Of a stretch of 64,000 nt of DNA, positions 24,854 through 58,195 are shown in pieces. The stretch is from contig JAJDUT010000082.1 of assembly GCA_022826515.1 (NCBI GenBank), forward strand, positions 55,375 to 119,374, in the 5' to 3' direction. Under the pieces are notes generated by a model, which did no database searches, was not told the DNA's origin, and saw nothing but the letters and a program-made list of their open reading frames with translations. A program made the translations under genes and the position numbers. The first letter of the stretch is position 1; each line of letters starts with the position of its first letter. This DNA comes from Candidatus Latescibacterota bacterium (GTDB lineage: Bacteria > Latescibacterota > UBA2968 > UBA8231).

Positions 24854-24947
24854 GCTCGGTTGTTGCGCACCACTTCGGGTCGGGTACGACGGTTGTAGGG
24901 GCTGGCTGACAGAGAGTAATAACGACAATAACAAGGCAGATCGCTCT

Positions 24948-27179: not shown

Positions 27180-27236
27180 TCTCCCCTGTCCGTCCGGCAA
27201 GACTCACAGTGCCCTTTGGGAGAGGATAATTTCTCT

Positions 27237-28808: not shown

Positions 28809-30485
28809 ATGCATTTCTTTTTTCTCCTACTCACTTCCTCGCGGCTCTTAGCTGCCGAAGGACGGGAGGTAGAGAGGCGAGTCCAGTTCGTAGATGTAGC
28901 GGAGGAAGTCGGAGTGGTGGCGCAGAACGTCTCCGGGGATAGCGAGCAGACGTACTTAGTCGACAGCATGATGGGAGGCTCGGCTTTTTTCGATTACGAC
29001 CAAGACGGCGATTTGGATTTGTACATCTTGAACGGGTCGAAGGTGGTTGGCTTTCCAGACCAAGAGCACCCGCGCAATACCTTTTATAGAAACGAGCGTG
29101 GTAAATTCGTCGATGCTACCAATGAAGCAAATTTGGGCGACATAGGCTGGGGTATGGGATGCGCCGTCGGCGATTACAACAACGATGGCGACTTGGACAT
29201 TTATATAACCAACTACGGCAGGAATGTCCTGTACGCTAATCAAGGCGACGGGACTTTTGTCGATGTGACCGAGTATGCTCAAGTAGGCGACGAGCGATTC
29301 GGCACAGGATGCGCCTTCCTCGATTACGATGGCGACGGCTATCTAGATCTGTACGTAGCCAACTACGTCGATTTCAAGCACTTTCTGCAGACCACTCCCA
29401 ATAGATCCTATATATGGAAAGGTTTAAGGGTCCACTTCGGACCGCGCGGAATGAAGGGGGGTGGGGATATCCTGTATCGCAACCAAGGCGACGGGACTTT
29501 TGCCGATGTGACCGTGGAGGCGCGAGTGGTGGACCAAGATAAGCTCTACGGTATGGGCGTGATCGGCGGCGATTACGACCGGGACGGCGATGTGGACATC
29601 TATGTGGCCAACGACACCGGGGCCAATTTCCTTTATCAGAATCAAGGCGACGGGACCTTTGTCGATATCGGCTGGATGATCGGTGCTGCTTATGGCGAAA
29701 GCGGCGAGGCCCAAGGCTGTATGGGTATTGCCTATGGGGATTACGACAATGACCTGTACCAAGACATATTAGTCACCAACTTCTGGGAGCAGACCAATAC
29801 GCTTTACCACAACGACCGCGGCACATTCTTTTCCGATCTCAGCTTTGACGCTGGCGTGGGCAAGGAGAGTTTCCAGTTTTTGGCTTGGGGCACCGAGTTT
29901 TTCGACTATGACAACGACGGCGATAAAGACCTTTTCGTGGCCAATGGCCACCTCTTTCCCCAATTGGACCGGGCCAACCTAGGCACTAGCTATGCCCAGA
30001 CCAATCAACTCTTTGAAAATTTGGGCGATGGCACCTTCACCGAGGTATCGCAGGTATCGGGGGAGGGCTTGGAGATTAAAAAGGTGAGCAGAGGAGCTGC
30101 TTTCGGGGATTACGACGATGATGGGGATCTAGACATATTTGTCCTGAATATCAACGATCGCCCCACTTTGTTGCGCAACGACGGAGGCAATGAGAATAAC
30201 TGGTTAATGGTCAAAACTATAGGAACTGAAAGCAACAGAGACGGCATAGGAGCTAGGATTGAGGTTCACAGTGGGGAGCTCACGCAAAGCGCCGAAATCC
30301 GAAGTGGTGCTAGCTATCTTTCGCACAATGACTTGAGGGCCCATTTCGGCTTGGGGCAGAGAGAGACCATTGACTTGTTGGTAGTACGCTGGCCAAGTGG
30401 CCTAGAAGAACGGTTTGAAAATCTCTCTGCCAATAGACTCGTGGTGCTTCGAGAAAGCAGGGGCATTGTCCACATAGATCAATAG
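28809..30485 (+). CDS. FG-GAP/ASPIC (CRTAC1-like) secreted protein
   Basis: The 558-residue protein has a short signal peptide (MHFFFLLLTSSRLLAAEG), then about eight FG-GAP units with calcium loops, e.g. DYDQDGDLDLYILNG, DYNNDGDLDIYITNYG, DYDGDGYLDLYVANY and DYDRDGDVDIYVAND. It ends in an ASPIC/UnbV domain (NRDGIGARIEVH, LRAHFGLGQRETIDLLVVRWPSG at its core). Unlike the first copy it lacks a TPR region. It closes the 24.9-30.5 kb block; an AT-rich intergenic region follows. Function by analogy: a secreted binding or adhesion protein. Confidence 0.88.
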   Translation: MHFFFLLLTSSRLLAAEGREVERRVQFVDVAEEVGVVAQNVSGDSEQTYLVDSMMGGSAFFDYDQDGDLDLYILNGSKVVGFPDQEHPRNTFYRNERGKFVDATNEANLGDIGWGMGCAVGDYNNDGDLDIYITNYGRNVLYANQGDGTFVDVTEYAQVGDERFGTGCAFLDYDGDGYLDLYVANYVDFKHFLQTTPNRSYIWKGLRVHFGPRGMKGGGDILYRNQGDGTFADVTVEARVVDQDKLYGMGVIGGDYDRDGDVDIYVANDTGANFLYQNQGDGTFVDIGWMIGAAYGESGEAQGCMGIAYGDYDNDLYQDILVTNFWEQTNTLYHNDRGTFFSDLSFDAGVGKESFQFLAWGTEFFDYDNDGDKDLFVANGHLFPQLDRANLGTSYAQTNQLFENLGDGTFTEVSQVSGEGLEIKKVSRGAAFGDYDDDGDLDIFVLNINDRPTLLRNDGGNENNWLMVKTIGTESNRDGIGARIEVHSGELTQSAEIRSGASYLSHNDLRAHFGLGQRETIDLLVVRWPSGLEERFENLSANRLVVLRESRGIVHIDQ

Positions 30486-30639: not shown

Positions 30640-30770
30640 TACGTTATCTTGTAGCTTCGCTTACCTTGCTACCGAAAAATATTTGAAAGGAGGAGACAAA
30701 GACCCCTTTGAGCAATGAGCAACCAACTGCTAAAAAAGCAGTTTTCTCACACAAGAAAGGACTTTGGGTG

Positions 30771-31697
30771 ATGAGCAGAGCAACGAGTTGTAGTTTCTTG
30801 GCATTGAGTTTTGTCCTTTTCACCGTCGTGGCCAGTTCGGCTCACCTGCGGACAGACAGAAACTGGGCCGCGGTTCAAGTTCCTATTGGCGTCGATGGCA
30901 TACGAGATGTCCAGATGGACGGAGATATAAGTGAATGGGACAACGTACCCTCGGTCTTCTGGGTGACCCATGAAGATCTGATCGAGACTGTCACCGGCAC
31001 CCAAGGGGATCCCGACCCTTCCAATCTAGCCGAGCGCATCATTTTTGGTTGGAGTCCAGTGACCAACATCCTGTATTTCATGGAGGAACGGTTCGACGAC
31101 TTCTTTTACGGAACCATCGAGAACAATTTCGATACGGTTGAGGTGACCTTGGACTTCGACCACAGCGGCGACGCCATCTTCCAGAATGTACAATCGGCGG
31201 ATTTGGACCCGGAAAGGTGGGAAGGGGCCCTGTCCCAGAATTACCGCTACACGCTACACCAAGAAAATCACATGTGGCTCTGGGGCGGAGCTCCGTGGGC
31301 TGGAGTCGAGCCTTATTCCGGTGCCAAGTGGAGTTTTGAAGGCGATATCAACGGCGGGGCCGGAACCCTATTTATGGAGATGTGGTTCACTCCCTTCGAC
31401 GATTTGCCTACTAGCTCTACGGGCATAGATGACGAAGATGTGATCGTCCACACTATGCAGGCAGGCGAAATCATGGGTATTGGTTTTGCCGTTCAGGACG
31501 ATGATAACGGTGCCGAAGGCTCGTACAACGGCTACTGGACCAATAGCGGCGACACGGAAATCTATTTCAAAGCCACCGCTATGGTTGACTACGTCCTGCT
31601 CCCCTTTGATGAGAGCATCTGGGTAGCGGGTGAAGACGTAGGTACCGCCGTCGAATCGGATAGCTGGGGGGACATCAAGGCGAGTTTCTCCCGCTAA
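30771..31697 (+). CDS. Secreted CBM9-like (DOMON-type) sugar-binding protein
   Basis: The 308-residue protein from ATG 30771 has a signal peptide (SFLALSFVLFTVVASSAHL). The mature N-terminus GDISEWDNVP is the usual first strand of CBM9-like domains, followed by a beta-rich region (TNILYFMEERFDDFF, VEVTLDFDHSGDAIF) and a C-terminal strand with EIYFKATAMVDYV. A TTG start at 30708, nearer to a strong GGAGGAG, would give a 329-residue form with an N-terminal extension before the signal. The gene ends just before a strong intrinsic terminator, so it is likely expressed at a higher level than the operon downstream. Ligand unknown. Confidence 0.72.
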   Translation: MSRATSCSFLALSFVLFTVVASSAHLRTDRNWAAVQVPIGVDGIRDVQMDGDISEWDNVPSVFWVTHEDLIETVTGTQGDPDPSNLAERIIFGWSPVTNILYFMEERFDDFFYGTIENNFDTVEVTLDFDHSGDAIFQNVQSADLDPERWEGALSQNYRYTLHQENHMWLWGGAPWAGVEPYSGAKWSFEGDINGGAGTLFMEMWFTPFDDLPTSSTGIDDEDVIVHTMQAGEIMGIGFAVQDDDNGAEGSYNGYWTNSGDTEIYFKATAMVDYVLLPFDESIWVAGEDVGTAVESDSWGDIKASFSR

Positions 31698-31727
31698 GGA
31701 GAACAAGTAAGAGAAAATGAGCAGTTT

Positions 31728-31782: not shown

Positions 31783-33732
31783 ATGCTCTCACCTAAGTCA
31801 ATAGGGGTACTTTTACTCGCGTTACTAGGTGTCGGCCTCTGCCCCCAAAATGTCTCCGGCGTGGTTATTTACAGAATTGGTACGCCTTTTTCAACAACAG
31901 AAAAAGACAGTCTTGCAGGTCTCGGCATCGACTTCAGGGAAATCGACTGGTCGGCTTCCCACCTGCAAGAAGCCCTTGAATTGGACTCGTTGCAGGTGGG
32001 TTCACTGCAACCCAACTACTTTGATGAGGACGAGGACATCGCCGCGACCCTCTTGAGCAGGGGTGGCTGGGTACGGGTGCGGCTTTTCGCCAATCAAAAT
32101 AAACTAATTGGAGAGGTCTTGGTCGATGGCGACCCGACTACGGGCCTCACGTGGCCAGCCGTAGCTCCTGAGAGCTTTCAGGTGGGCACTTCGCGGACCC
32201 TCAGTGAACAATTGACTTTTGATTTAGGCGGGCGATTTCTCATCCGGGAAGTGAGATTTCGTCCCCTAGCGGAAAAGCCAGAGCATTTTGTGGAGCGGCT
32301 CTCCATTGGCTCTCTTGATGAGAGGCTGGTCAATATTGGCAACAGAATGTCCTACTTCCCGACCGTAGCCGAAGTAAAAGAAAATACCGAACCTGAAGTC
32401 AGCGTGATTTTAGACCCGCCGCTATCGACTCAAACGGTCCAATTACTGATTTTTCGCGACACCCCCAAGGAAATAGGGCTCGCCGATTTTGAACTCTACG
32501 GCGGCGGTTTTTTGGCCCGAGCCTCGTATGAGTCCGAAGTAGTCGATCTAGGCGGCTTGGCCAGTTGGGGTGAGATTCGCTGGTCGGGCCGGCAAGATGC
32601 GGACGCCCGGGTCAATATCCGCACCCGGACGGGCGCAGACCCACATCCCGACATTTTTTGGCAACTGCGACCCGAGCAGCGGGACAGCGTGCAATTTCGC
32701 GATGGCGGCGGCGACTTGACCCTGAGCGAATACAAGCGCCGCTACAGCAAGCTGCTCGATGTTCTCAAGCCGGTAAAACCCCAGGATAGAGTGAGCCCCG
32801 ATACGGAAAACTGGAGTTTCTGGTCCAGTCCCTATCTGTTTGAAAATTCGGGGACCAGCATTGTTTCCCCTAGTCCGCGCCAATTTTTACAACTCAAAGT
32901 GGATTTCTTTTCTACTATCGAGGATGGGGGCAAGGTCGATTATGTCGAGTTTAGAGCCTCAGTGCCGCCGGCTGTGCACGGCTTAGTGGGAGAAATTTTC
33001 CCGGTGGATACCCAAGTGGGGCAAGCGACGCATTTCACCTATTTCATCCGGCCGACCATCCGGGCCAGCGACACAGGCTTTGACGGCGTAGAGATTTCCA
33101 CGCCGTCAGGGGTGGTTTCAGTCGATTCGCTGCGCATAGATGGCATCAACTACGACGACTTTACTTGGTCGAGAACCACAGATGGCTTGGGTTTTGAGCT
33201 CAACTTTCCGCGCAAGCTGGAGCCGACCGACAGCGGGGCCCTGATCGAGGTGGTGTTCAACGCGCCGGTATTGCGGGAAGTGGGCACGCTGTTTACTGGT
33301 AAAGTGTTCAATAGCGCCGAGCCGAACGAGGTGCGCCAGCGCATCAACCCAGGCAACGCCGCCGATGAGATAGAGAGCGACGGGATCGCAGTAAAAACAT
33401 CGCTGAGCAGTTCACTGATATTTGCGCCGCAGATTGGGCCCAATCCTTTTACGCCCAACGGCGATGCCATTAACGATGTGGTGCATATTTCCTACAAGCT
33501 CTTGCGGGTAACGTCTCAGGTTCCGGTCTCCGTAGAAATCTTCGACCTGTCCGGTCGACTAGTTAAGCAAATATACGCCGGAGACATTCCCATCGGAGAG
33601 TACTCCCACTCTTGGGATGGGACAGACCACTCCAACCGGCTGGTCTCCCCAGGACTATACTTGTATCGAATAGCGGTAGACATCCAATCGGAAGAGGGCA
33701 TCAAGAGCGGCGTTATCGCCGTGGCCTATTGA
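31783..33732 (+). CDS. Secreted protein with TPNGDxxND/FlgD-like C-terminal tail, paralog 1
   Basis: This 649-residue protein starts at ATG 31783 with AAAGGA upstream and a signal peptide (IGVLLLALLGVGLCPQNVSG). The mid-region is beta-rich with a discoidin-like part (FDLGGRFLIREVRFRPL). It shares with the next two genes a W-rich motif (NWSFWSSPY, then SPSPRQFLQLKVDF), a block VGEIFPVDTQVGQATHFTYF and the tail at about 551-649: FTPNGDAIND, VEIFDLSGRLVKQIY, WDGTDHSNRLVSPGLYLYRI, ending VAY. The tail matches FlgD-Ig-like or type IX sorting-like domains. I infer a surface-exported structural protein; neither function nor export route is shown. Confidence 0.78.
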   Translation: MLSPKSIGVLLLALLGVGLCPQNVSGVVIYRIGTPFSTTEKDSLAGLGIDFREIDWSASHLQEALELDSLQVGSLQPNYFDEDEDIAATLLSRGGWVRVRLFANQNKLIGEVLVDGDPTTGLTWPAVAPESFQVGTSRTLSEQLTFDLGGRFLIREVRFRPLAEKPEHFVERLSIGSLDERLVNIGNRMSYFPTVAEVKENTEPEVSVILDPPLSTQTVQLLIFRDTPKEIGLADFELYGGGFLARASYESEVVDLGGLASWGEIRWSGRQDADARVNIRTRTGADPHPDIFWQLRPEQRDSVQFRDGGGDLTLSEYKRRYSKLLDVLKPVKPQDRVSPDTENWSFWSSPYLFENSGTSIVSPSPRQFLQLKVDFFSTIEDGGKVDYVEFRASVPPAVHGLVGEIFPVDTQVGQATHFTYFIRPTIRASDTGFDGVEISTPSGVVSVDSLRIDGINYDDFTWSRTTDGLGFELNFPRKLEPTDSGALIEVVFNAPVLREVGTLFTGKVFNSAEPNEVRQRINPGNAADEIESDGIAVKTSLSSSLIFAPQIGPNPFTPNGDAINDVVHISYKLLRVTSQVPVSVEIFDLSGRLVKQIYAGDIPIGEYSHSWDGTDHSNRLVSPGLYLYRIAVDIQSEEGIKSGVIAVAY

Positions 33733-33748
33733 TTCTTAATCGTCCCCT

Positions 33749-36412
33749 ATGAGTGAATACGTGAGATACCAACGCATGAGAGCATTCAAGCTGGTAAGCA
33801 TGAGCTTGGTCTGCCTCCTAGGTAGTCTGCTCCTAGGTGACGCAGCTTGGGGGCAAGAGGGCTTTTCTATCCAAGACGGCGCGGCTGTCATCGAGTCTAG
33901 GGATCACTGGGCCAGTTGGCAGTCGGTAGCAAAGACCATCCAAATCACCGAGGAGGGCGTAAAACCAGCCTTTATACGCAAAAGTACCAAGATCGAAGTA
34001 GATGGCGTTGAACAGGTAGTCCCCGGCATTAACGCGGTTTTGAATGCCTCCGAGTTCGGCGGCGGGATATGGGAGGCCGGCTCCAATCGCTCGAGCGCAG
34101 AAAACCTCATGGACGGCAGGATGGACACCTACTGGGAGCCGGATACTTCCACCCCGCTTAGGGATTGGTGGGTGCAAATCGATTTAGGGCGGGCCGTATC
34201 AGCCAATAAGATCGTCCTCAAGTTTGTCGGCGAGGATTTGGGAGACCCCTTTCTCCAATTCAAGGTCCTCACCTCTCAGGGGGAGACGATCATCGGGCCG
34301 CTGGTGTACAGGAAACGCTTCTCAACAAACAAGCCCATCAAGAATGAACGGGTCTTTGAAGTCGATTTGACCAACCAGTTGCCCACCAAATGGCCACAGG
34401 TGCGCGGGGACTTTACCGGCGATGTAATCAGATTCGTCTCTGTCGGCGTCACGGACAGCGACTTTGGCAAGGCAAGACAAGTTTCCCAGTCCGCTTACGA
34501 GGGCCTCGACCCCGACCAACAAGGCGACATAGAATACTTCCGCCGAGAAACCTCGGGAAGGCTGAGATTGTTGGAGGGACGCGAGGATTGGGAGGCCCTG
34601 GCCGACAGGGACAGTCAAGGCCCTGTCGTCTACTATCGCCGCGAGTTGCCTCGATTGGCGGAAGTGGAAGTCTGGTCGATCGGCGACAATATCGGGGTTG
34701 GCGTCCTAGAGCGGGGTGGTAAGGTGACGAGTTGGGAAAACAACGGTGCTGAGGGTGTGGTGGTTGACGGGGTAATATATAGTGTAGAAAAGGCGTTGTA
34801 CTGGCCCGCTCAAGGAGGGTACAATCCCGATAGGCTGCTGCCTTCGGAGCCACCGGATGTCGAGCGTGCCTTAGTGGTGGATCTGGGAGGAGCCTTCTTC
34901 TTGGACAATGTCCGCGTACTCCAAGCCAGCAGTAGTCCTCCTGGGCCTTTTCGCGCTTACCGCATCGAAGTCTCGGATGGTTCCACCAATGCCGGCGGAA
35001 GTCTGGCTTGGAAAACAGTAGGTTCGATCGACCATATCAACGGAAATGAATCGTACCACGATTTTAAGTTCCCGCTCACCAAAGTCGAGCATTTTTCTTT
35101 TACCTATAAGCTCCATGTAAGGGCTGGACGCCACGGCTTGTCAGAGATTCAATTTTTCGGCGAAGGGTACATGCCCGAGGCCCGGATCGAATCGGTCTTT
35201 GACGGGCCTGCGGCGTTCATAGAATTGGGGGCCGCTCCCCAAAATTTAGCGTCTATAGAATGGGATGCGGATACACCGCCGGGTACGGACATTATTCTCC
35301 AGACCCGAACTGGCAACACCGTCAAAACTTCTACGCTCTATTATAAAAAGAATGGTGAATTGTTTCCCGGCACCGAAGAAGAAGCGGCGGCAGCGCACGC
35401 TACGGACAAGAAGTTCTTTGGCGATGCCTCTGTTGGACCCGTCGTTACCCAGACCAACCCGGGCAGCGATTGGAGTGGTTGGAGTCAACGCTATTTCAAT
35501 TCGGGAGACAAAATCACCTCGCCCAGTCCGCGTAAATTCGTCGCCATCCGAGCGACCTTTCTCACGGACAACCCCCTCGTGGCCGCTACGCTGCGCTGGG
35601 TGAAACTCAACTTTGTAGCGCCAGTCGCCAAAACAATTATTGGCGAAGTGCTGCCCCCTCAACTCGAGACGATTGGCACAGAGCAACTGTTTTCCTATTT
35701 CGTCCGCACGACCTTCGAGGCGGCCAACGAGGGTTTTGACGAGATTCTCATTGAAGCTCCCCCTAGCGTCAAAATGAAATTCAAGCAAGCCCATCTGAGC
35801 CTCACAGGGCAGCCAACTCAAACCTATACCGCTCAAAGCGAAGGCTTTGAGGTTGTGTCTGATGATTCCGATTCGCTTTGGGTTCGTCTGCCTACCCCCA
35901 TCAAGGGCGAGGCCGCGTTGGTCGAGCTTCAGTTCGAGGCGACCATATTCGATTTTACCACCTTCTTCAATGGCTCTATCGGCCATTCGGCCATTTCCAA
36001 TTCGTGGCAAAGAGTGGACCCAGGCGATGCAAACGAGACCCGGGATAGCGAAAAAACCGTGATCCTAGCCCTTGAAAGAGGAGCAGTGCTGGGGGATATC
36101 GAAGTTAAAAATAAAATTTTCACCCCTAACGGCGACGGCATCAACGATGATATGGCTGTGAGTTTTTCACTCATGCGGGTGAAGGCTTCAACGCCGTTAC
36201 AGGTGCAAATATACGATCTAGGTGGGCGTCTCGTTCACCAACTACGCGAAGAGTACATAACTACGGGACGGCATTCCGTGGTTTGGACCGGAGTCGATGC
36301 CTCCGGAGCTTTGGTGGCCCCTGGCATATATGTGCTGAAGATCGACACTAAGGTCGATTCAAAATCGAGTAGAAATACCTCGGACTACCGCTTAGTACAC
36401 GTCTCCTATTGA
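33749..36412 (+). CDS. Secreted protein with TPNGDxxND/FlgD-like C-terminal tail, paralog 2
   Basis: The 887-residue protein is the largest of three tandem paralogs. A signal peptide is present (LVSMSLVCLLGSLLLGDAAWG); ATG 33749 and ATG 33776 are both possible starts, neither with a clear Shine-Dalgarno. Two discoidin-like regions are visible (RMDTYWEPDTSTPLRDWWV with VQIDLGRAVSANKIVLKFVG, and VDLGGAFFLDNVRVLQASS). The shared motifs are DWSGWSQRYF, SPSPRKFVAIRATF, IGEVLPPQLETIG and the tail at about 788-887: FTPNGDGIND, VQIYDLGGRLVHQL, APGIYVLKI, ending VSY. It lies 16 bases after paralog 1. Discoidin domains suggest carbohydrate binding. Confidence 0.78.
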   Translation: MSEYVRYQRMRAFKLVSMSLVCLLGSLLLGDAAWGQEGFSIQDGAAVIESRDHWASWQSVAKTIQITEEGVKPAFIRKSTKIEVDGVEQVVPGINAVLNASEFGGGIWEAGSNRSSAENLMDGRMDTYWEPDTSTPLRDWWVQIDLGRAVSANKIVLKFVGEDLGDPFLQFKVLTSQGETIIGPLVYRKRFSTNKPIKNERVFEVDLTNQLPTKWPQVRGDFTGDVIRFVSVGVTDSDFGKARQVSQSAYEGLDPDQQGDIEYFRRETSGRLRLLEGREDWEALADRDSQGPVVYYRRELPRLAEVEVWSIGDNIGVGVLERGGKVTSWENNGAEGVVVDGVIYSVEKALYWPAQGGYNPDRLLPSEPPDVERALVVDLGGAFFLDNVRVLQASSSPPGPFRAYRIEVSDGSTNAGGSLAWKTVGSIDHINGNESYHDFKFPLTKVEHFSFTYKLHVRAGRHGLSEIQFFGEGYMPEARIESVFDGPAAFIELGAAPQNLASIEWDADTPPGTDIILQTRTGNTVKTSTLYYKKNGELFPGTEEEAAAAHATDKKFFGDASVGPVVTQTNPGSDWSGWSQRYFNSGDKITSPSPRKFVAIRATFLTDNPLVAATLRWVKLNFVAPVAKTIIGEVLPPQLETIGTEQLFSYFVRTTFEAANEGFDEILIEAPPSVKMKFKQAHLSLTGQPTQTYTAQSEGFEVVSDDSDSLWVRLPTPIKGEAALVELQFEATIFDFTTFFNGSIGHSAISNSWQRVDPGDANETRDSEKTVILALERGAVLGDIEVKNKIFTPNGDGINDDMAVSFSLMRVKASTPLQVQIYDLGGRLVHQLREEYITTGRHSVVWTGVDASGALVAPGIYVLKIDTKVDSKSSRNTSDYRLVHVSY

Positions 36413-36437
36413 TCTTCCGCGATCCGAGAGGAACAGA

Positions 36438-38162
36438 TTGGACAAACCACCGTTGGTCAAGACCGCGCTATTAGCGTTTTCTTGTCTATTGCCGGGACTT
36501 GCGCCGACCCAAAGCCATGGGGAGACGATCGTTATTGGCGGCGGGCCAGGCACCCTAGCGTGGGAGGACCATTATTCCGCGACATCGGTTATCGACTTTG
36601 ACACCAGTCCCGGCCAGATTCAGCCTGCCCAGACAGGTCCCGAAGACAATATCGTCCTGAAAATATTTGAAAGAGGAGGGACCGTAACGTCGCCTAATGC
36701 GAGAATAATACTCGAAATATCCTCGAGTCTTTTGAATGAACAATTGGCGCATATGGTCAGTGGCGATACGACCAAGGCTTTTGAAGTGAAGGGCGGTTCC
36801 CCTACCGGCGTTATATTCAGGCTAGATTTGGGCGAGCGCTTCGGGGTCAATCGGATCAAGTTTTTCCCGCGCAAGGGATTTGAAGAATTTTTCCTTAAAG
36901 GCTATGAATTGCTGCTAAACGACGGCAGCGAGGAGCAGAAAACCCTAGCCGGGACGCCGGATTTCAAGGTTTTTAAAACCGAGGAACGCAACCTCAAGCC
37001 GACCGTTGACCTAGCCGTCCCCCTGCAGTTTGTTCGTTTCATAGAGGTGAAGCAACTGGTGCGAGGGGAGTGGGAAATTGACGAGTTTCAAGTCTTTGGT
37101 GCGGGTTTTGCCTCCACGTCATCGTACACCTCAATAGTATTTGATCGAGAGCAGCCCACGGTCTTTGGCGACATAACATGGGCCAGGGGGAGCATCGGCG
37201 AACCAACAAAAACGGATGCCATCCTAGTGACCCGGAGCGGCAACACGCCGGATCCCAGCGATTCGCTATCTTGGAGCGCTTGGTCCTCCCCCTATCCGGC
37301 CGGAGTCCGCACGGCGATTGAATCACCAGCCCCGCGTCGTTTTTTTCAGTTCCATTTACTCCTTAAGACCAGCGATATCCTAGCCGCGGCTACAGTTGAT
37401 TCCCTCTCCTTTGAGATGTCTCCTGCCCTAGCTGACTCGCTGGTGGGCGAGATCTGGCCTCAACGTGCTCTGATCGGGCAGAACACCCCCTTTACCTATG
37501 CCGTGAGAGCTGTCAACAGCCGCGGCTTTGACCGTCTCGAACTAAAAACTATGGCACCGGTAGATGTAGTGCGCTCCGTGCAAATAGACGGAACCGATGT
37601 CGAATGGGAAAAGACGGATACAGAAGACGGAGTCCAAATTAGCTTCCCCCTGATTGTGGGAAACCGCACCTTGCGAGTGGTCTTTGAGAATGTGGCTTTG
37701 CAGTACAATACCTTTTTTGCCGGCAGAGTCTCCGATAGCCAAGAACCGGACAATCTGCCCCAAGTAGTCACCGAAGGAGACGCAGTTTCTGATTTTGAGG
37801 CACAGGGAGACGATCTTTCGGTCGAGATCTCAGTGGGCAAAGACCTCATTCATTCCATGGAAGTAGCTCCTCTTCCTTTCACGCCCAACGGCGATGGCCT
37901 AAATGATGAAGTCCTGGTGACCTACGACATCGTCAACCTGACAGGTGGTGCTTTGGTCTCGGTGGCGATCTACGATCTTTCTGGAAGACGTATAAAGGCG
38001 ATCTATTCAGGGTTGGATCCCAGTAGGAGATACCAAAAGGCTTGGGATGGAACGGACGAGAGCGGTGCCAAGGTGCTACCCGGAATCTATATGGTGCGAG
38101 TGGAAATTGATGCAGATTCAGGGTCCGAGAGTAAGACGCAAATTGTCCCAGTAGTCTATTGA
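36438..38162 (+). CDS. Secreted protein with TPNGDxxND/FlgD-like C-terminal tail, paralog 3
   Basis: The 574-residue protein probably starts at TTG 36438, with GAGAGGAAC upstream, giving MDKPPLVKTALLAFSC and a signal peptide ending near SHG. A discoidin-like region (IFRLDLGERFGVNRIKFFP) is followed by the shared motifs SWSAWSSPYP, SPAPRRFFQFHLLL, VGEIWPQRALIGQNTPFTYA and the tail at about 477-574: FTPNGDGLND, VAIYDLSGRRIKAIY, WDGTDESGAKVLPGIYMVRV, ending VVY. It lies 25 bases after paralog 2. The conserved order of blocks shows descent from one ancestor by tandem duplication with strong divergence. Confidence 0.78.
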   Translation: MDKPPLVKTALLAFSCLLPGLAPTQSHGETIVIGGGPGTLAWEDHYSATSVIDFDTSPGQIQPAQTGPEDNIVLKIFERGGTVTSPNARIILEISSSLLNEQLAHMVSGDTTKAFEVKGGSPTGVIFRLDLGERFGVNRIKFFPRKGFEEFFLKGYELLLNDGSEEQKTLAGTPDFKVFKTEERNLKPTVDLAVPLQFVRFIEVKQLVRGEWEIDEFQVFGAGFASTSSYTSIVFDREQPTVFGDITWARGSIGEPTKTDAILVTRSGNTPDPSDSLSWSAWSSPYPAGVRTAIESPAPRRFFQFHLLLKTSDILAAATVDSLSFEMSPALADSLVGEIWPQRALIGQNTPFTYAVRAVNSRGFDRLELKTMAPVDVVRSVQIDGTDVEWEKTDTEDGVQISFPLIVGNRTLRVVFENVALQYNTFFAGRVSDSQEPDNLPQVVTEGDAVSDFEAQGDDLSVEISVGKDLIHSMEVAPLPFTPNGDGLNDEVLVTYDIVNLTGGALVSVAIYDLSGRRIKAIYSGLDPSRRYQKAWDGTDESGAKVLPGIYMVRVEIDADSGSESKTQIVPVVY

Positions 38163-38200
38163 TTATTCCCATTTTATCTGAAAGCTAGGGTGTAACTCTC

Positions 38201-40909
38201 ATGCTGACCTGCCATATTTGCAACACTCTACTGCGCAGTATTAGTTCAGTTATCATAGTTTGCTCCTTGCTCGTTTCCATGTCATTTGACACCGACGCGC
38301 AAGCCCAAGATGTCGATCCGCTGCGCATAAAAGGTGTGCGCCGAGGGGCCGAACTCACCTTTGAACCAAGCGGATCCGGCGTGCTGTTCGGAGCCTTGGA
38401 TCCAGCGGTCAAAAAGTGGTACGTCCCTCAAGAACTTTTCTTGGAATACCGTTGGAAACAGTGGGAATACACCAACTACGCTAGAGACCACTATAACCGC
38501 TATGTGGATATCAATTTAGCCGGGGATTACTTCTACGATATTTACGGATCCTACATCACTAGAGGATGGTTGCTCTACGACTGGTCCCAGACGCAACCCC
38601 AGCAAGGGGGTAGCAATTTATTCAAGACCGAGAGATTCCGAGACTTTTTCAGCAATTTGGTCATTGCCTCTGACCAAAAAGGGCAACACAACTTGGCTAT
38701 AACCATAGGCAATGAGATCCGTTCGACTCTCACTCCGATGACCTTCTCAAAGCCAGCCATGGACGGAATCCAGGTAGATTACCAAGCAGACAAATACCAA
38801 GTCACGACGATTCTCTCGCGGATTTCTTCTCCCGGTGGGGCCGGTCCTCGCAACCCTGCGGTCAACCAAACGACCAGCCTGACAACGCTGATGGGTGGGA
38901 GGGCAGTTGCCCAAGTAGGCGATTTTATCAGCGTCGGGGCCAACTATGTAAGCGCCCACAATTCCTTCCAACTCTTAGATGCCTTTGAAGGAACCCCTAG
39001 GAGTGGTTCGATTACTTCTAGTCAAAATGCTGAAAATATCACCCAGCTCTTCGTCCGCCTAACCGACGATTCACCCGAAGATAACGAAGGTGGAGCTACC
39101 CTCTTCGCCTGGGACATGATTATAGAGGCCGACGTCGAAAGCATTGACGAAGAGGGAGAACGAACTCTTAGGCGAGAGGTTGTCCGGGCCAGTGAGGCCG
39201 GTCTCAAACCCTCGCCCCAAGGCGGCTTTCAGCGCTTGGGTTTCTGGGAAGCTAGCGGCTCTGAGCAGATCGAATTAGTATATGATTTTTCCGAGGGAAC
39301 CTACACCGGCCCCGACCCCTCGGAGATACGAAGAGTAACCTTTGAACTGGTGGTTGCCAACGACTACAGAATTGAGGTGTCTTCGAACCGCCAGAATAAC
39401 CGACAAAACAACAACGTGTTTCTGCTGGCGACCAGAGCCGAAGAAAATGTCAAAGATGGCTCCAATCTCAGAGTCCTCAAGATCCCGTACGGTTTGCCGA
39501 CCGCCACCGAAATTTTCGGTTTTACTCTGGAGGCGAACAATATTGCGGGGCTTGATTTCTACGGCGAATTCGACCGCAGTAGGAGTTACCGAAAATACCC
39601 CAACAGGCAGCATACAAAACACCTGTCGGCTTTTGACCAAGGCGATGGCTGGATGTTGAATCTGTCGAGAACCGTTCAGCCGTGGTTCTTTTTTAGCGAG
39701 GCTTACAGTATGGACCACAATTATAATACAAGCGCTATCTTGGCCCGGGGCGAGGTCAACATAGATTATGAAGACCGGACGAGATTCTACTACGAACTCG
39801 TCGATGACAACGACGATCAGGATCGGTACCCCGATTGGCAGAGGATAAACGAAAGCATCGACTTGAATGTATTCCCTGGCTTGGACGAGAACGTCGATTT
39901 TATCTCCGACTTCAATCAAAACGATAGCGAAGATCTGCCCAACTTAGTACCCGACTACGACGAGCCCTTTCTGCGCTATTCTACGGACCGCCCCGAGTAT
40001 CTGTTCGGCATAGATATGAACAACAATATCTGGGGAGATCGGTTCGAAAACGACGATGAAGCAGATTTGCCCTATGGCAGGGATTTAAGCGGGTACAACC
40101 TTTATGGGGGCGTCAACATTACTCCATACATGAGATTGACGGTCGGCCGCACCGACGAAAGCCTCATTGCCGGCGATGGACAAAACACCACCCATTATTT
40201 GCTTTTTACGCTAGAAAAGGACTACCCCGGACTAGGCAAGCTGAGGATTTTTGAAAACTTCAGACTCGCCAAGGACAATATAGAGAACGACCTTCGCCAA
40301 TGGGACGAATTCGAGCGGCGAAACGTCCCTACCATTGATCCGCTGGCGGCCCGGAATACGTGGATAAATTCGTCCTATATAAGCTTCAACTACACCAAGC
40401 TGAAGAATCTAAATATCATCAACAAGCTGAAATACGACCGCTGGCGTCAACGGGAGAGGCAACCCGATCTGCGACGGGACTTCGTTTTTGTCGGTCTGAT
40501 CAATAAAGTGGACTATGTTCTCAAATTCATTAATCTCGATATCCAGCCAAAAATTAAAAACGAATTGAGGATAGAATCTCCAGCGCTTAAATCAGATCCC
40601 AAACGGAAGGAAGACACGCTGATTTTTACTTTATTGGCCCGGTGGCCGTTGTTTAATAACTCCACGATGCAGGCCGGCGTGGAGTACACCGTTTTCCAAC
40701 AGCTCAGGGATTCGGATACAGCGGTCAAGGAAGGGTTGCTAGACGACTTCCGTGAAATTGTGGGCGCGGCCCAGTTCGCCAATAACTCAAACTACTTGGG
40801 TTACAGCTTGACGACCCTGATGGGACTCAGGCTGACCAGAAGAGCCATAGACAACGAAACCGAAACGGGCAGAATGGCTTTTGCCACGGTATTTGCCGGG
40901 TTGGAGTAA
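38201..40909 (+). CDS. Large beta-rich outer-membrane-like protein of unknown function
   Basis: The 902-residue protein has an N-terminal signal (RSISSVIIVCSLLVSMSF) and an ordered N-terminal block (ELTFEPSGSGVLFGALDPAVKKWYVPQELFLEY split over about 49-81) followed by long alternating amphipathic strands rich in tyrosine, tryptophan and arginine, e.g. WKQWEYTNYARDHYNRYV, RTRFYYELVDDNDDQDRYP and LINKVDYVLKFINLDIQPK. The C-terminal part keeps beta-barrel character to the end (GRMAFATVFAGLE). I infer a large outer-membrane barrel, but no family is recognised with certainty. It follows the three FlgD-tail proteins by 38 bases and precedes a periplasmic isomerase by 38, so it is a candidate exporter or anchor for them. 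Confidence 0.65.
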   Translation: MLTCHICNTLLRSISSVIIVCSLLVSMSFDTDAQAQDVDPLRIKGVRRGAELTFEPSGSGVLFGALDPAVKKWYVPQELFLEYRWKQWEYTNYARDHYNRYVDINLAGDYFYDIYGSYITRGWLLYDWSQTQPQQGGSNLFKTERFRDFFSNLVIASDQKGQHNLAITIGNEIRSTLTPMTFSKPAMDGIQVDYQADKYQVTTILSRISSPGGAGPRNPAVNQTTSLTTLMGGRAVAQVGDFISVGANYVSAHNSFQLLDAFEGTPRSGSITSSQNAENITQLFVRLTDDSPEDNEGGATLFAWDMIIEADVESIDEEGERTLRREVVRASEAGLKPSPQGGFQRLGFWEASGSEQIELVYDFSEGTYTGPDPSEIRRVTFELVVANDYRIEVSSNRQNNRQNNNVFLLATRAEENVKDGSNLRVLKIPYGLPTATEIFGFTLEANNIAGLDFYGEFDRSRSYRKYPNRQHTKHLSAFDQGDGWMLNLSRTVQPWFFFSEAYSMDHNYNTSAILARGEVNIDYEDRTRFYYELVDDNDDQDRYPDWQRINESIDLNVFPGLDENVDFISDFNQNDSEDLPNLVPDYDEPFLRYSTDRPEYLFGIDMNNNIWGDRFENDDEADLPYGRDLSGYNLYGGVNITPYMRLTVGRTDESLIAGDGQNTTHYLLFTLEKDYPGLGKLRIFENFRLAKDNIENDLRQWDEFERRNVPTIDPLAARNTWINSSYISFNYTKLKNLNIINKLKYDRWRQRERQPDLRRDFVFVGLINKVDYVLKFINLDIQPKIKNELRIESPALKSDPKRKEDTLIFTLLARWPLFNNSTMQAGVEYTVFQQLRDSDTAVKEGLLDDFREIVGAAQFANNSNYLGYSLTTLMGLRLTRRAIDNETETGRMAFATVFAGLE

Positions 40910-40947
40910 CCTGCTTATTACAGAAATACAGGGGAGATTTAAGCTAC

Positions 40948-42621
40948 ATGCCAAGAGAAATGACTGCATTTCGGCTTTTACTACTCGTGCTTTTTACCAT
41001 GCTCATAGGTTGCACAGTAGAAATGGGAGACCGAGTTGTTGCTCAGATAGGTGATGCGGAGATAACAGTTGACCTGTTGCAGGAATTTATCGATGGCCTC
41101 CCCGAAGATGACAAGGCGGAGACCACTAGGGTAGAAGAAGCGAGGAATCATTTGAACACCATGATCAATATCCAACTACTGATCATGGAGGCGAAGGCGG
41201 CCGATCTCGACAAAAGTCCTGAATTTCGCGCCCGGCTGGAAAGGGTCCAGCGGGAAAAGTTGATCAGCATTTTCCAAGACAGAGCGCTGGAAGTAGAGGA
41301 GGAAGTGGAGGAGGGCGAAGTGCGGGAATACGCTGAACGAATGGGGCTCACTCGAGCAGTCAGATTGGCCGATATAATGGTTCCCAGCCGCGAAAATGCC
41401 TTGGCCGCCCTCCAAGAACTCAAAAACGGGGTGCCTTTTGGGCAAGTCGCCCAAAAGTGGTCCATAAACAAAAAAACCTCGGCCCAAGGTGGTGACTTAG
41501 GCCGTTACACCACCCGAGAGCACATGGTCACTCCCCTTCAGGACAAGCTATTTTCCCTCGCCTTGGGCGAAGTCTCCGAGCCCATAAAAATCGGTGGAAA
41601 CTATTCGATCTTCACAGTCATAGCCGACTCTACCATCGAACTCAGTCCTCAGAGAAGATTGGCGATTCAAATGGGGCTGAAAAAAGAAAAAAAGCAGCGG
41701 GCGCTATCGACCTTAGTCGCTGAACTCAAGGAAAAATACCACCTCGAATTGGATCGAGAAGGGCTCGCGCTCATTGTCGAAAAAGTGCGTGGCGGTGCAT
41801 CTTTTGCCTCGGAGACCGAACGCAATATAGTTCTCTATAGGTACGACGACGGAGAAATAACCGCTCAAGACTTGGCAGAAGCTGGCCACCCCCTGAAAGG
41901 CACTGCCTTGGCCCAACTCAGCGACTCCAGCCAAGTGGTCGCTTTTGCCGAGCGCCATGTCGTACCCAATGCAATGCTTGTGGAAGCGGCCCGGCGTGCT
42001 GGCATAGACGAGGAAGCAGAGACGGTCGAGTGGTTGGAAAATCAAGCAAATCAACTCTTGATAAGTGCCCTCAGGGCGCGGCTCCTGAGAGCTAAAGTGA
42101 CCATCGCCGAAAACGAGTTACGCCAATTCTACAAGGCCCATGCGGAAAGATATATGCACCCCGAGCAAATTGAAGTGCAGGAGGTTCTGGTAGAGACAGA
42201 GGCCGAGGCACTACGGTTGATGGAGCAGATCCAAAAAGGAGCCCGATTAGGCGATTTGGCCAAGGAGTATTCTATCCGCTCGCTAGAGAATCGGGATGAA
42301 GAGGGCCGATTCCACTTTCATCTTTTCGAAAAGGCCTTTCTCGGTGGTTTTGTAGAAGTCGCCGAAAAAGCCGAGATCGGAGCGCTCACCGGTCCGGCCA
42401 AGGTAAATGAAGGTTATTCTATATTTAAGGTGCTTTCAAGGGAACGAAAGCGAGAGACCTTTGAGGAGGCCGAGTGGCGAGTCCGGTCCCAGCTCAGAAG
42501 AGAAAAAAACCGAAGGGCCTTTAATCTGTTTATCGAAGAAGTGCGGAATAAATACGCATCGAAAGTGGTTATTCGGGAGAATGACCTCAAAGCCGCTTTC
42601 GGAGAGGAGGAGGAATCATAG
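40948..42621 (+). CDS. Double-parvulin peptidyl-prolyl isomerase lipoprotein (SurA/PrsA-like)
   Basis: The 557-residue protein has a lipoprotein signal with lipobox LIGC (LLLLVLFTMLIGC), placing it in the envelope. A SurA-type N-terminal helical region (about 30-130) is followed by one parvulin domain at about 135-230 (ALAALQELKNGVPFGQVAQK, QGGDLGRYTTREHM) and a second, more diverged one at about 405-500 (EAEALRLMEQIQKGARLGDL, DEEGRFHFHLFEKAF). Such proteins chaperone outer-membrane barrels and secreted proteins. Ending the operon of secreted tail proteins and a barrel, it probably assists their folding. GGGGAG precedes ATG 40948. Confidence 0.88.
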   Translation: MPREMTAFRLLLLVLFTMLIGCTVEMGDRVVAQIGDAEITVDLLQEFIDGLPEDDKAETTRVEEARNHLNTMINIQLLIMEAKAADLDKSPEFRARLERVQREKLISIFQDRALEVEEEVEEGEVREYAERMGLTRAVRLADIMVPSRENALAALQELKNGVPFGQVAQKWSINKKTSAQGGDLGRYTTREHMVTPLQDKLFSLALGEVSEPIKIGGNYSIFTVIADSTIELSPQRRLAIQMGLKKEKKQRALSTLVAELKEKYHLELDREGLALIVEKVRGGASFASETERNIVLYRYDDGEITAQDLAEAGHPLKGTALAQLSDSSQVVAFAERHVVPNAMLVEAARRAGIDEEAETVEWLENQANQLLISALRARLLRAKVTIAENELRQFYKAHAERYMHPEQIEVQEVLVETEAEALRLMEQIQKGARLGDLAKEYSIRSLENRDEEGRFHFHLFEKAFLGGFVEVAEKAEIGALTGPAKVNEGYSIFKVLSRERKRETFEEAEWRVRSQLRREKNRRAFNLFIEEVRNKYASKVVIRENDLKAAFGEEEES

Positions 42622-42623
42622 TC

Positions 42624-44315
42624 CTACTCTACATAGGGGTTGGCCCCCATTTCCAGAAAGGCATAGGGACCGCTTTGGCGGATCACCAGTAGCTTATTGG
42701 CTGGTACCGACGGCACTATCTGACGAGTACCGTCGGGCCAAGTGACCTCCACTTCATCTGCCCCTTCCGCTCTACCTAGGCCAAAAAAAATACGCATATC
42801 GTTGTAGGAGAGATAACTGGAAGCACCATTAGCCGTCCGCCACTGAGATCGGCCGTCGGCCAGCAAACGGATCTTGGCACCGACGGCGTCGCGATTGGGG
42901 CCACGGCCCAGAAGTTGGACGACAAGCCAGTTGTTGACGGGGGCGAAGTCGTTGCGCAGCAGGGTGCTCGCCTCGTCCAAATTGACGACGAAAATGTCCA
43001 TATCGCCGTCGTTGTCGTAGTCGCCGAAGCTGGCACCGCGGCTGACTCTTTTAAGAGCCATTCCCGGGCCAGCCCCATCCCCTATATCGCTTAAACGATT
43101 GCCGCCGTCATTGCGGATCAATTGATTGCGCTGGGGGTAGGAAGTGCCCGCAATAGTGCTAGCCGCCCGTGGATAGACATGGCCATTAGCAACGAATAGA
43201 TCCAAGTCGCCGTCCCGGTCATAGTCAAAAAATTGGGTGCCCCACCCCAGCATCCCAAGCGTGGGTTCTTCTAGACCAATCTGGGTCGTTATATCTTTGA
43301 AATGGCCCTTTCCGTCGTTGAGATAGAAGGTATTACTCTCGCGGAAAAAATGGGTTATATAGAGGTCGAGGTCACCGTCGGCGTCATAGTCTCCGCCGCT
43401 GACCCCCATACCTGCCTCTTCCTCGCCGTATTCGTTATACGCAATGCCTGCTTTGAGGCCAATTTCGCTAAAGGTGCCATCGCGGTTATTGTCGAAGAGT
43501 ACATTGGGAGTTGCGTCATTGGCCACAAAGAGATCGGTGTCGCCATCGTTGTCGAAATCTTCGGCCAGTACGCCCAATCCATAGTAGCGATTGGCCCAAG
43601 AAATACCCGAGGAACGGGTGACATCGGTGAAGGTGTTGTCCCCATTGTTGCGGTAGAATAGGTCAGCGGCTCCAGGTAGGCCCTGGGGACCGCAGAAAAT
43701 CTCGATTCCCTCGTAGGTGCATATCTTATCTGGGGGGGCATCAAAGTCGTAGATCAGATAATTGGCGACGTATAAGTCGAGATCGCCGTCACCATCGTAG
43801 TCAAAAAAAGCGGCGCTGGAGCTATAATCATTTCCTGCTACCCCAGTGGAAATGTCCACAAAGGTCCCGTTGCCTTGGTTGCGGTAGAGGATATTGGGAC
43901 CATAATTGGTTACGTAAAGATCGCGGTATCCATCGCCGTCGATATCGCCCACGGTGCAGCCCATGCCCCAACTGCGGTCCCCGACGCCAGCTAGTAAGGC
44001 CACATCGGCAAAGGTGCCGTTACCTTGGTTGCGGTAAAGGATATTGCCCGGGCCGGATTTTTGCCGGTAGGTATTGACCGTAGCGCCGTTGACCGCGTAT
44101 AGATCGAGGTCACCATCGTTATCGTAATCAAAAAAAGCAGCGCCGCCACCGGAGGTTTCGACAATGTGCTTTTTTTTAGCTCCGCCGGCCACATGTTGGA
44201 AGGCGATGTGCGCTTCCTTTGTTTGGTCGGTGAATTGGGGCAGAACAGATTCCGGCAGCAGCACGGCCAACGCCAGGGCAAAGGCAAGGACTCGGCGATA
44301 ATAAAAAAAGTCCAT
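42624..44315 (-). CDS. FG-GAP/ASPIC (CRTAC1-like) secreted protein
   Basis: The 563-residue protein from ATG 44315 has a signal peptide (VLAFALALAVLLPESVLPQ). It carries repeated FG-GAP loops (FFDYDNDGDLDLYAVNG, DIDGDGYRDLYVTNYG, DYDGDGDLDLYVANYL, DFDNDGDTDLFVANDA) and a C-terminal ASPIC/UnbV domain (NRDAVGAKIRLL, DMRIFFGLGRAEGADEVEVTWPDG). It closely resembles the protein at 28809-30485 in length and order. It converges on the parvulin gene with two bases between stops. Longer in-frame starts up to 44642 overlap the divergent gene and are unlikely. Confidence 0.88.
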   Translation of the reverse strand: MDFFYYRRVLAFALALAVLLPESVLPQFTDQTKEAHIAFQHVAGGAKKKHIVETSGGGAAFFDYDNDGDLDLYAVNGATVNTYRQKSGPGNILYRNQGNGTFADVALLAGVGDRSWGMGCTVGDIDGDGYRDLYVTNYGPNILYRNQGNGTFVDISTGVAGNDYSSSAAFFDYDGDGDLDLYVANYLIYDFDAPPDKICTYEGIEIFCGPQGLPGAADLFYRNNGDNTFTDVTRSSGISWANRYYGLGVLAEDFDNDGDTDLFVANDATPNVLFDNNRDGTFSEIGLKAGIAYNEYGEEEAGMGVSGGDYDADGDLDLYITHFFRESNTFYLNDGKGHFKDITTQIGLEEPTLGMLGWGTQFFDYDRDGDLDLFVANGHVYPRAASTIAGTSYPQRNQLIRNDGGNRLSDIGDGAGPGMALKRVSRGASFGDYDNDGDMDIFVVNLDEASTLLRNDFAPVNNWLVVQLLGRGPNRDAVGAKIRLLADGRSQWRTANGASSYLSYNDMRIFFGLGRAEGADEVEVTWPDGTRQIVPSVPANKLLVIRQSGPYAFLEMGANPYVE

Positions 44316-44439
44316 ACACTCATCGCTGTAGAAGTAAACTAAGCAGATAATGGTCGCAATTATAGAAATTACCCTTTGCTGCGGCAAGGACAGAGGATCC
44401 GTTGCACGCTCTCGCCATTCATGGATCCGGAGGTGCGAA

Positions 44440-45234
44440 ATGAGACAGATTTTCGCCGCCCTAATAATGGGTATCACCTGTGCGGCTATGGGACGATCCG
44501 AGAACACTGTTGTAGAACTCCGCGACGGAGTCACGATGGAATTTGTGTGGATCGAGCCAGGTACTTTTCTGATGGGATCGCCAACTTCAGCCTCTACACG
44601 GGGCGAAGACGAAGTTCCACAGCACGAGGTCTCGATCAGCAAGGGATTTTACTTGGGTAAATTTGAGATTACCCAAGCCCAATGGGTCGCGGTGATGGGG
44701 ACTGCGCCGTGGACCCGGCGCAAGTACGTCCAGGCCGCGCCGAACCACCCGGCAGTCTATATCTCATGGATCGATATGCAGGAATTCCTCCGCCGCTTGA
44801 ACCAAGCCGCCGATAGAGATTTGTACCGCCTGCCTACCGAAGCCGAGTGGGAATACGCCTGCCGGGCCGGGACCACGACGAGCCGTTCCTTCGGGGACGA
44901 CGAAAGCCTGTTAGGCGACTATGCCTGGTACATAGGAAACTTGGGAGAGGCGGAAGGGAAATTTGCCCAACCGGTGGGTTCAAAGCGGCCAAATCCGTGG
45001 GGGCTATACGATATGCACGGCAATGTATGGGAGTGGGTACAAGACTGGTACAGCAGCGCCTATTCAAGCGCCAAACAGGTGGACCCTACCGGAGTTGCTT
45101 CGGGTTCTACCCGCGTTATGCGCGGCGGCGGCTTTGTCAATCACGCGCGCAACGTGCGGTCAGCCAAACGCTTCAGCTTTGATCAATCGCTCCGCTACTG
45201 TGCTATTGGAGCACGCCTAGTGATGACGAAATAA
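44440..45234 (+). CDS. SUMF1/FGE-fold protein lacking the catalytic cysteines
   Basis: The 264-residue protein from ATG 44440 (GGAGGTG upstream) has a signal peptide (MRQIFAALIMGITCAAMG) and the sulfatase-modifying-factor fold: MEFVWIEPGTFLMGS, FEITQAQWVAVMGT, RLPTEAEWEYACRAGTTT, GLYDMHGNVWEWVQDWY and VMRGGGFVNHARNVRSAKR. Formylglycine-generating enzymes have two cysteines just after the RGG-W motif; here those positions hold no cysteine, so it is probably not an oxidase. No sulfatase gene lies nearby. Other members of this fold act as binding or structural proteins. It is divergent from the FG-GAP/ASPIC gene, with a shared 124-base promoter region. Confidence 0.88.
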   Translation: MRQIFAALIMGITCAAMGRSENTVVELRDGVTMEFVWIEPGTFLMGSPTSASTRGEDEVPQHEVSISKGFYLGKFEITQAQWVAVMGTAPWTRRKYVQAAPNHPAVYISWIDMQEFLRRLNQAADRDLYRLPTEAEWEYACRAGTTTSRSFGDDESLLGDYAWYIGNLGEAEGKFAQPVGSKRPNPWGLYDMHGNVWEWVQDWYSSAYSSAKQVDPTGVASGSTRVMRGGGFVNHARNVRSAKRFSFDQSLRYCAIGARLVMTK

Positions 45235-51833: not shown

Positions 51834-51852
51834 CGTCAATCTCACTCTCCAG

Positions 51853-58116: not shown

Positions 58117-58195
58117 GAGACCGGTGCTTTCGCTTCACGCGTCCTGCCAAATTTGTTATAGATATAGGTATTCCCACCTAATCGCAGGAGGTCCC

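Follow-up and report, generated by a model that had tools for sequence, protein, structure and literature searches.

The SusC/SusD systems of Bacteroidota combine a big outer-membrane barrel with co-varying surface binding proteins in many paralogous loci, some of which have permease neighbors, and such substrate-specific uptake systems expand to dozens of divergent copies. Here, a comparable arrangement is described around a five-gene operon (o1 to o5) from a Candidatus Latescibacterota bacterium, encoded in a 64,000-nucleotide stretch of contig JAJDUT010000082.1 (assembly GCA_022826515.1, positions 55,375 to 119,374; hereafter, the window). Like SusC/SusD, the o4 genes and their partners form many divergent paralogous loci in which a predicted big barrel co-varies with putative surface binders and some permease genes lie nearby; unlike SusC/SusD, o4 lacks both a plug and a TonB-receptor domain, the putative surface proteins carry tails of the type IX secretion system (T9SS) kind rather than being SusD, a parvulin lipoprotein belongs to the unit, and no carbohydrate-active enzymes occur among the 25 commonest neighbor families. 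A second described system, the Agl-Glt machinery of Myxococcus, includes AglR, AglQ and AglS, GltG and GltJ, and tetratricopeptide-repeat (TPR) proteins, as given in excerpts of PMC3169522. Separate core loci in relatives of the window resemble it in having a TolQ-type gene, two TolR-type genes, a TPR protein, an AgmX/PglI C-terminal domain and outer-membrane barrels, but the o4 barrel is different and much larger, DUF4159, PorV-like partners and T9SS-type tails are present, and the satellite loci have no motor.

The original prediction, made from the window alone, had described five consecutive genes as a candidate surface-assembly operon of three proteins with a common FlgD- or type IX-like C-terminal signature, a 902-residue barrel-like protein and a double-parvulin lipoprotein. 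Open reading frame (ORF) coordinates bear out this layout, with intergenic gaps of 16, 25, 38, and 38 bases and all five genes on the + strand (lengths in amino acids, aa):

o1, 31783..33732 (start also readable at 31717), + strand: secreted protein of 649 aa with an FlgD/CHU_C tail (Pfam)
o2, 33749..36412, + strand: 887-aa protein with an F5/8 type C (discoidin) domain and an FlgD/CHU_C tail (Pfam)
o3, 36438..38162, + strand: 574-aa protein with a CBM32-like domain at residues 67-222, then an FlgD/CHU_C tail
o4, 38201..40909, + strand: 902-aa protein predicted to form a large outer-membrane beta-barrel, from a family without a name, with an acidic motif at ~533-634 (AlphaFold2)
o5, 40948..42621, + strand: lipoprotein with two parvulin (PPIC) domains (Pfam)

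Gene calling followed a greedy rule that favors the longest ORF and misread some loci (L042, L222, and L225 among them). The order o1-o2-o3-o4-o5, which the prediction had proposed to look for in relatives, was whole in seven of eight orthologous loci (a subset of 19 loci compared), including L048 at 78% o4 identity; the eighth, L035, begins within o3 at a contig end. Complete o1 orthologs, found in L031-L034, L036, and L037, were 647-651 aa long. At ~50% o4 identity gene order was fluid, with o3-o4-o1-o2 in eight of 11 loci (L038-L047 and L049, of which L042 was misread in ORF calling); in some of these an additional ORF precedes o2.

The operon is thus real, but it is not single, being one of about thirty paralogous loci, and the unit is larger than predicted. 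In the complete chromosome of a relative (G005, OX638377.1, one 6.27-Mb contig), the gene set has multiplied to about thirty places, with 47 o4 genes (61 matched segments merged by hand; ORF clustering gives 47 as well) in 31 regions. Protein families were clustered from these module regions and compared with 31 controls from the same chromosome, which were set at round-number positions outside the o4 regions instead of being drawn randomly and which hold no o4 by construction. Tail proteins (92 genes) were present in all 31 module regions vs. 7/31 controls, the double parvulin o5 (25 genes) in 25/31 vs. 0/31, a CBM9-like protein (25 genes) in 23/31 vs. 0/31, a TPR protein (25 genes) in 21/31 vs. 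2/31, an ASPIC/UnbV protein (16 genes) in 14/31 vs. 1/31, a lipoprotein designated cl7 (13 genes) in 12/31 vs. 0/31, and a DUF6785/6784 protein (13 genes) in 12/31 vs. 3/31 (p = 0.016; because of the relatedness of the copies, p values treat them as more independent than they are). In 24 regions, o4 was accompanied by o5 and by two or more tail proteins with a minimum length of 450 aa, and for 34 of the 47 o4 genes a tail gene lay on the same strand no more than 150 bases away. Five families together occupy 401 kb, or ~6.4% of the chromosome. Measured along the same chromosome, 29 of 35 o5-homologous places were within 15 kb of an o4 gene, a zone covering 17% of its length; for matches longer than 1 kb the figure was 29 of 31, the four shorter matches, all at least 51 kb from any o4, being treated apart. 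Likewise, 18 of 21 CBM9-like homologs were within 15 kb of o4 (hand count from coordinates). The cl7 proteins (e.g., L122:13434-14240 and L115:6615-7394) are lipoproteins of an unnamed family, 240-280 aa long and marked by an NPYT[FY]G-like motif; a Pfam scan of one member, from L122, gave no match.

Sequence divergence between regions was parallel across the families, when proteins shorter than 400 (tails), 700 (o4), 230 (CBM9-like), and 400 aa (o5) were left out. Between-region similarity of o4 was correlated with that of the tails (rho 0.81, 31 regions, 0/2000 shuffles), of the CBM9-like proteins (rho 0.81, 23 regions, 0/2000 shuffles) and, less closely, of o5 (rho 0.45, 23 regions, 1/2000 shuffles); tails and CBM9-like proteins gave rho 0.59 (0/2000 shuffles), and CBM9-like proteins and o5 rho 0.33 (20 regions, 12/2000 shuffles). 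In addition, seven loci (L118, L120, L123, L126, L128, L130, and L134) encode two barrels each, and in a 64-row o4 tree these fell into two clades by position with identical internal branching. The parallel divergence of o4 and its neighbors and the mirrored trees of the barrel pairs indicate that the operons duplicate as units, of which o5 is the loosest member; together with the conserved gene order, this agrees with the prediction that the five genes belong to one unit. The unit is also wider than o1-o5, since the CBM9-like gene recurs with it and the TPR, ASPIC/UnbV, and DUF6785/6784 genes recur more loosely. In the window, proteins assigned to the same clusters as the families of the G005 module regions include:

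CBM9-like secreted protein, 30708..31697, + strand: 329 aa, upstream of o1 (member of cluster 3)
TPR protein, 27216..28793, + strand: loosely recurring companion (member of cluster 2)
FG-GAP/ASPIC-UnbV protein, 28809..30485, + strand: loosely recurring companion (Pfam, cluster 5)
second FG-GAP/ASPIC-UnbV protein, 42624..44642, - strand (Pfam, clustering)
DUF6785/DUF6784 membrane protein, 45310..47298, + strand: PF20581 422.8 bits, PF20580 102.6 bits (cluster 6), a putative permease

The tails of o1, o2, and o3 matched both CHU_C (PF13585; 36.5, 30.7, and 29.4 bits) and FlgD_ig (PF13860; 33.7, 36.1, and 33.6 bits), all above the cut-off of 27, so the common C-terminal signature holds in all three. 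CHU_C was found in 32 and FlgD_ig in 31 of 34 o3-type proteins, among which the o1 of the window was counted. The NCBIfam models of type IX sorting domains fell below their cut-offs (TIGR04131, 30.2, 21.8, and 18.6 bits, cut-off 35; TIGR04183, 18.0, 18.4, and 18.7 bits, cut-off 23), and the type IX label is therefore based on Pfam plus context; by sequence, the tail is closer to FlgD (E = 3e-8) than to PorU (E = 0.0061). The idea that FlgD tails are specific to the module was rejected, as G001, G005, and G008 each have at least 150 matches genome-wide.

Statements about genes elsewhere in the genome are drawn from relatives, chiefly G005. Among the genomes compared, the nearest to the window shares 43% of sampled 31-mers with it. 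The prediction had seen no T9SS core gene and proposed a search for one; none is visible at the locus, yet in the seven relatives tested SprA_N occurred once per genome (in G049 as two pieces in one frame), PorV was found in all seven, and PorU was above cut-off in six. In G005, PorU (3734420-3737590) adjoins PorV (3733222-3734166). The exception for PorU was G028, of family f3, which has SprA, 17 PorV-family matches, a partial PorU match, and six FlgD_ig matches; relatives of this type may use another type IX tail. Thus, the locus is like the type IX system in that its tails pass CHU_C and a PorV-like gene, below family cut-off, adjoins o4 in some core loci, but o4 is not SprA, which is a separate gene, and the tail is nearer to FlgD than to PorU. 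Since the T9SS core is encoded elsewhere in relatives, o4 need not export the tails. This bears directly on the function first proposed, dedicated surface assembly, in which o4 would be a channel or anchor displaying the tail proteins of its own operon and o5 their chaperone, with no import. The joint occurrence of tails, barrel and foldase allows such a role, but with tails that match a Pfam T9SS sorting domain and relatives that have the core, a second exporter is not needed, and the likeness of o4 to fimbrial ushers is confined to the fold of large barrels, no usher profile having matched. Surface assembly accordingly appears unlikely; nothing favors it over uptake, toward which the carbohydrate-binding-like folds and permease neighbors lean, and the original interpretation is partly supported overall. 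Of the two outcomes named in advance as counting against it, a five-gene order never shared by relatives and a 902-residue protein predicted to be no membrane barrel, neither occurred.

The o4 protein of the window matched nothing in Pfam or NCBIfam at E ≤ 0.05 and nothing among Protein Data Bank (PDB) sequences at E ≤ 10, nor did an 83-sequence o4 profile match any PDB sequence. The AlphaFold2 model of o4 (pLDDT 80.8, pTM 0.77) has roughly 27 strands by hand count and long loops at about 316-430 and 505-628, and the best 50 rows of each of two fold searches with this model were all outer-membrane barrel proteins. We therefore regard o4 as a predicted large outer-membrane barrel with a signal peptide, in line with the structure check suggested in the original prediction. 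TonB receptors appeared at Foldseek ranks 40, 46, 48, and 50 in one search and were absent from the best 50 of the other, a result that excludes nothing. Residues ~533-634 form an almost invariant D/N-rich stretch, which presumably resembles calcium-binding repeats.

Several named families were considered for o4 and rejected. At 902 aa, against about 2000 residues for SprA, and with no PF14349, it is not SprA or a fragment of it; SprA is a separate gene in relatives, a search of four SprA proteins with the o4 profile (hmmsearch) gave nothing significant, and hhalign gave a probability of 20.8% over 95 columns (E = 0.0011). The acidic motif is common to o4 and SprA by appearance and was not counted as evidence of identity. 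Identity with TonB receptors or SusC was rejected in the absence of Plug (PF07715) and TonB_dep_Rec (PF00593) matches at E ≤ 0.05 in the window o4 and nine divergent relatives, and identity with fimbrial ushers in the absence of usher profile matches in the same ten proteins. The o4 systems do not substitute for TonB receptors either, since Plug counts overlap between f1 (20-28) and f2-f4 (11-36).

The closest protein to the o4 model in both length and fold was the S-layer protein SlpA/SDBC of Deinococcus (PF21620), the best full-length fold match, at a structural-alignment identity of 8-12%. Two of nine divergent o4 proteins, both core-type, also matched SlpA_C below the cut-off of 35 bits (L119:4454-7387, E = 4.2e-4, 19.3 bits; L127:5458-8391, E = 8.3e-4, 18.3 bits), over 116 and 174 residues respectively, and one of them has a further weak match; these matches may hint at how the family arose. 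They also raise a coat or porin reading, in which o4 would be a remote SlpA relative forming a lattice or porin layer with the tail proteins, the copies providing antigenic or environmental variety. The SlpA_C matches are, however, partial and sub-threshold, the other seven relatives had no Pfam match and the window o4 none to SlpA_C, no S-layer homology domain was matched in the window proteins, and 47 divergent copies with matched partners exceed the need of a coat. A coat is thus improbable in our view, although the weak SlpA_C matches raised its weight and lowered that of the uptake reading developed below.

Across the phylum, the o4 family was detected in 39 of 64 genomes (E ≤ 1e-6), comprising all those of families f1 (25/25), f6 (4/4), f8 (3/3), f10 (2/2), and f9 (1/1) and four of five in f5; at the same threshold it was found in none of the 24 genomes of f2, f3, f4, and f7.

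The o5 protein has PPIC-type rotamase domains at residues 149-225 and 388-508 and an N-terminus ending in MLIGC, read directly as a lipobox, so the double-parvulin lipoprotein of the original prediction is confirmed. Among 26 aligned family members Cys22 was almost invariant, the strict lipobox pattern was present in 14 of 25, and Rotamase and Rotamase_2 were each found in 24 of 26. These features and a SurA_N_3 match in 7/26 members are like SurA/PrsA, but o5 is multi-copy, tied to o4 loci, and well under the cut-offs of the NCBIfam SurA and PrsA equivalogs. In the CBM9-like family, 6 of 26 members matched CBM9_1.

The o4 tree split 16 core-type rows from 48 satellite rows with a support of 100, and the window locus is best read as a satellite copy. 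Core o4 genes of f6 (L138, L139, L141, and L142) are neighbors of a tail protein, a PorV-like protein, a TPR protein of ~1095 residues, ExbB, two ExbD, DUF4159, and a cl7 lipoprotein, with L139 stopping after ExbD and L142 at ExbB because of contig ends. The PorV-like neighbors scored 64.8 bits (L138) and 42.1 bits (L127), under the family cut-off of 90. An AgmX/PglI C-terminal domain was above cut-off in all four core-type cl7 proteins scanned (L112, L119, L138, and L141) but not in the one satellite cl7 scanned. In G005, motor genes lie at 1231-1257 kb (L119 and L204, no PorV-like gene seen) and at 3441-3461 kb (L127, PorV-like), and the complete set of TolQ-type, two TolR-type, TPR, and AgmX/PglI proteins plus barrel was recovered in L119+L204 of G005, L138, and L141. 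DUF4159 proteins of the core loci (L138:15180-17729, L119:17447-19899, and L127:17679-18875) have, by eye, a TonB-like N-terminus with one membrane segment and a basic proline-containing stretch, and in L138 and L119 they adjoin the AgmX/PglI-tailed lipoprotein.

Around the core TPR gene, o4 was present in 14 of 20 further regions, which cover 20 of the 36 places matched by this gene. At E ≤ 1e-20 this gene was found in the genomes of f1 (5/5), f6 (2/2), and f8 (1/1), partially in f5 (1/1, 1e-40) and weakly in f7 (1e-24), and it was not found in three f3/f4 genomes tested. The taxonomic profiles of o4 and the TPR gene thus agree in outline, which would tie the satellites to the core; from this shared range and the shared barrel family, we infer a coupling of the satellites to the core motor. 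In L211 (G008:C1:3699000-3718900), the core TPR gene is in two pieces on opposite strands, which suggests a local inversion or an assembly error.

The composition of the core loci invites an adhesion or gliding reading, in which the TPR/ExbB-ExbD-ExbD/AgmX core would move or load o4 complexes bearing T9SS-exported adhesins and the copies would represent many specificities, in the manner of Myxococcus Agl-Glt or of gliding in Bacteroidota. One TolQ-type protein, two TolR-type proteins, a TPR protein, AgmX/PglI lipoproteins, and barrels indeed match the Agl-Glt recipe. The GltG/GltJ matches are, however, C-terminal and partial (14-29 bits vs. cut-offs of 450-650), the Glt barrels are small at 209-275 aa according to excerpts of PMC3169522, no ExbB/ExbD was seen in satellite regions, and a look for motility data on these uncultured cells yielded none, making this reading quite unlikely, somewhere between surface assembly and a coat. 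If it were true, type IX cargo would be linked to an Agl-like motor.

Instead, we tentatively favor an expanded outer-membrane capture or uptake system that would operate in the way of SusC/SusD, though built on an unrelated barrel and possibly driven by a TolQR-type motor, to which we assign a probability of roughly 0.48. The reading draws on the number of copies, the matching of partners, folds that resemble carbohydrate-binding domains, and the permeases nearby. Beyond the gene set, its co-duplication, the predicted folds, and the T9SS and core genes observed in relatives, we infer surface position, binding, transport direction, energy coupling, and substrate as follows. Proteins o1-o3 would be exported in two steps, through Sec and next through the type IX system, with SprA, PorV, and PorU encoded elsewhere, and would end on the cell surface, where their CBM32/discoidin-like domains and the CBM9-like protein may bind glycan or another polymer. 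Captured material would pass through the o4 barrel, every copy of which would be adapted to a partner set of its own, and the lipoprotein o5 would be a foldase specialized for either the barrel or the tails. Energy could come from the shared core (TPR-1090, DUF4159, AgmX/PglI lipoprotein, ExbB, and two ExbD) beside the separate core o4 branch.

A number of observations weigh against uptake. No glycoside hydrolase or lyase was present in the 25 commonest of 90 neighbor families (104 proteins), unlike polysaccharide loci, and the SBP_bac_1 and BPD_transp clusters were not significant (4 vs. 0 controls, p = 0.11). The window o4 and nine relatives have no plug domain or TonB-receptor match, the same genomes retain 20-28 TonB receptors, and the weak SlpA_C likeness of two core-type o4 proteins also points toward a function as coat or porin. 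ExbB with two ExbD was present in only 3 of 20 core TPR-gene regions and, under the clustering used, was not seen in any satellite region. Furthermore, o5 follows the tails weakly (rho 0.33, 31/2000 shuffles), and the CBM9-like protein of the window itself has no Pfam match. A stronger version is doubtful, namely that this is a separate class of energized transport, the Latescibacterota counterpart of SusCD, with a new and perhaps remotely SlpA-like barrel family, its own T9SS-exported binders and parvulin foldase, a TPR/ExbB-ExbD-ExbD/AgmX motor replacing TonB and plug, and about fifty barrels per genome.

If the uptake reading is true, it tells how a widespread uncultured phylum, sponge-associated members included, feeds, and the strategy of a barrel plus binding proteins would have arisen a second time with a different barrel; under any reading, many "hypothetical proteins" become testable as one unit. 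No description of the system was found in literature on Latescibacteria or Latescibacterota with type IX secretion, T9SS, FlgD, or SusD/polysaccharide, subscription papers and supplements being outside the scope of this search. Excerpts of PMC4454575 mention some Plug proteins along with non-specific porins. The terms "outer membrane", "secretion", and "TonB" do not occur in the main text of PMC12993501.

Among 104 further neighbor proteins of the modules were six ABC permeases, four solute-binding proteins, two MR_MLE proteins, and four PhyH proteins. The window itself encodes two phytanoyl-CoA dioxygenase-like (PhyH) genes (22070-22801 and 51021-51935) and a TonB-dependent receptor with a CarboxypepD_reg-like domain and Plug (58124-60760). 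Another FG-GAP/ASPIC-UnbV protein, with a weak TPR match (24792-27179), lies beside the module's TPR and ASPIC genes, and a 761-aa protein (47328-49613) has a spermidine-synthase domain at 509-636 and relatives in three module regions vs. one control. The related genomes are labeled Candidatus Latescibacterota, some Gemmatimonadetes or Handelsmanbacteria, and once Gemmatimonas phototrophica; the match position of the last of these (L045, CAMAVQ010000065.1) fits G019:C65, in the family of the window's relatives, and it is probably a mislabeled metagenome-assembled genome.

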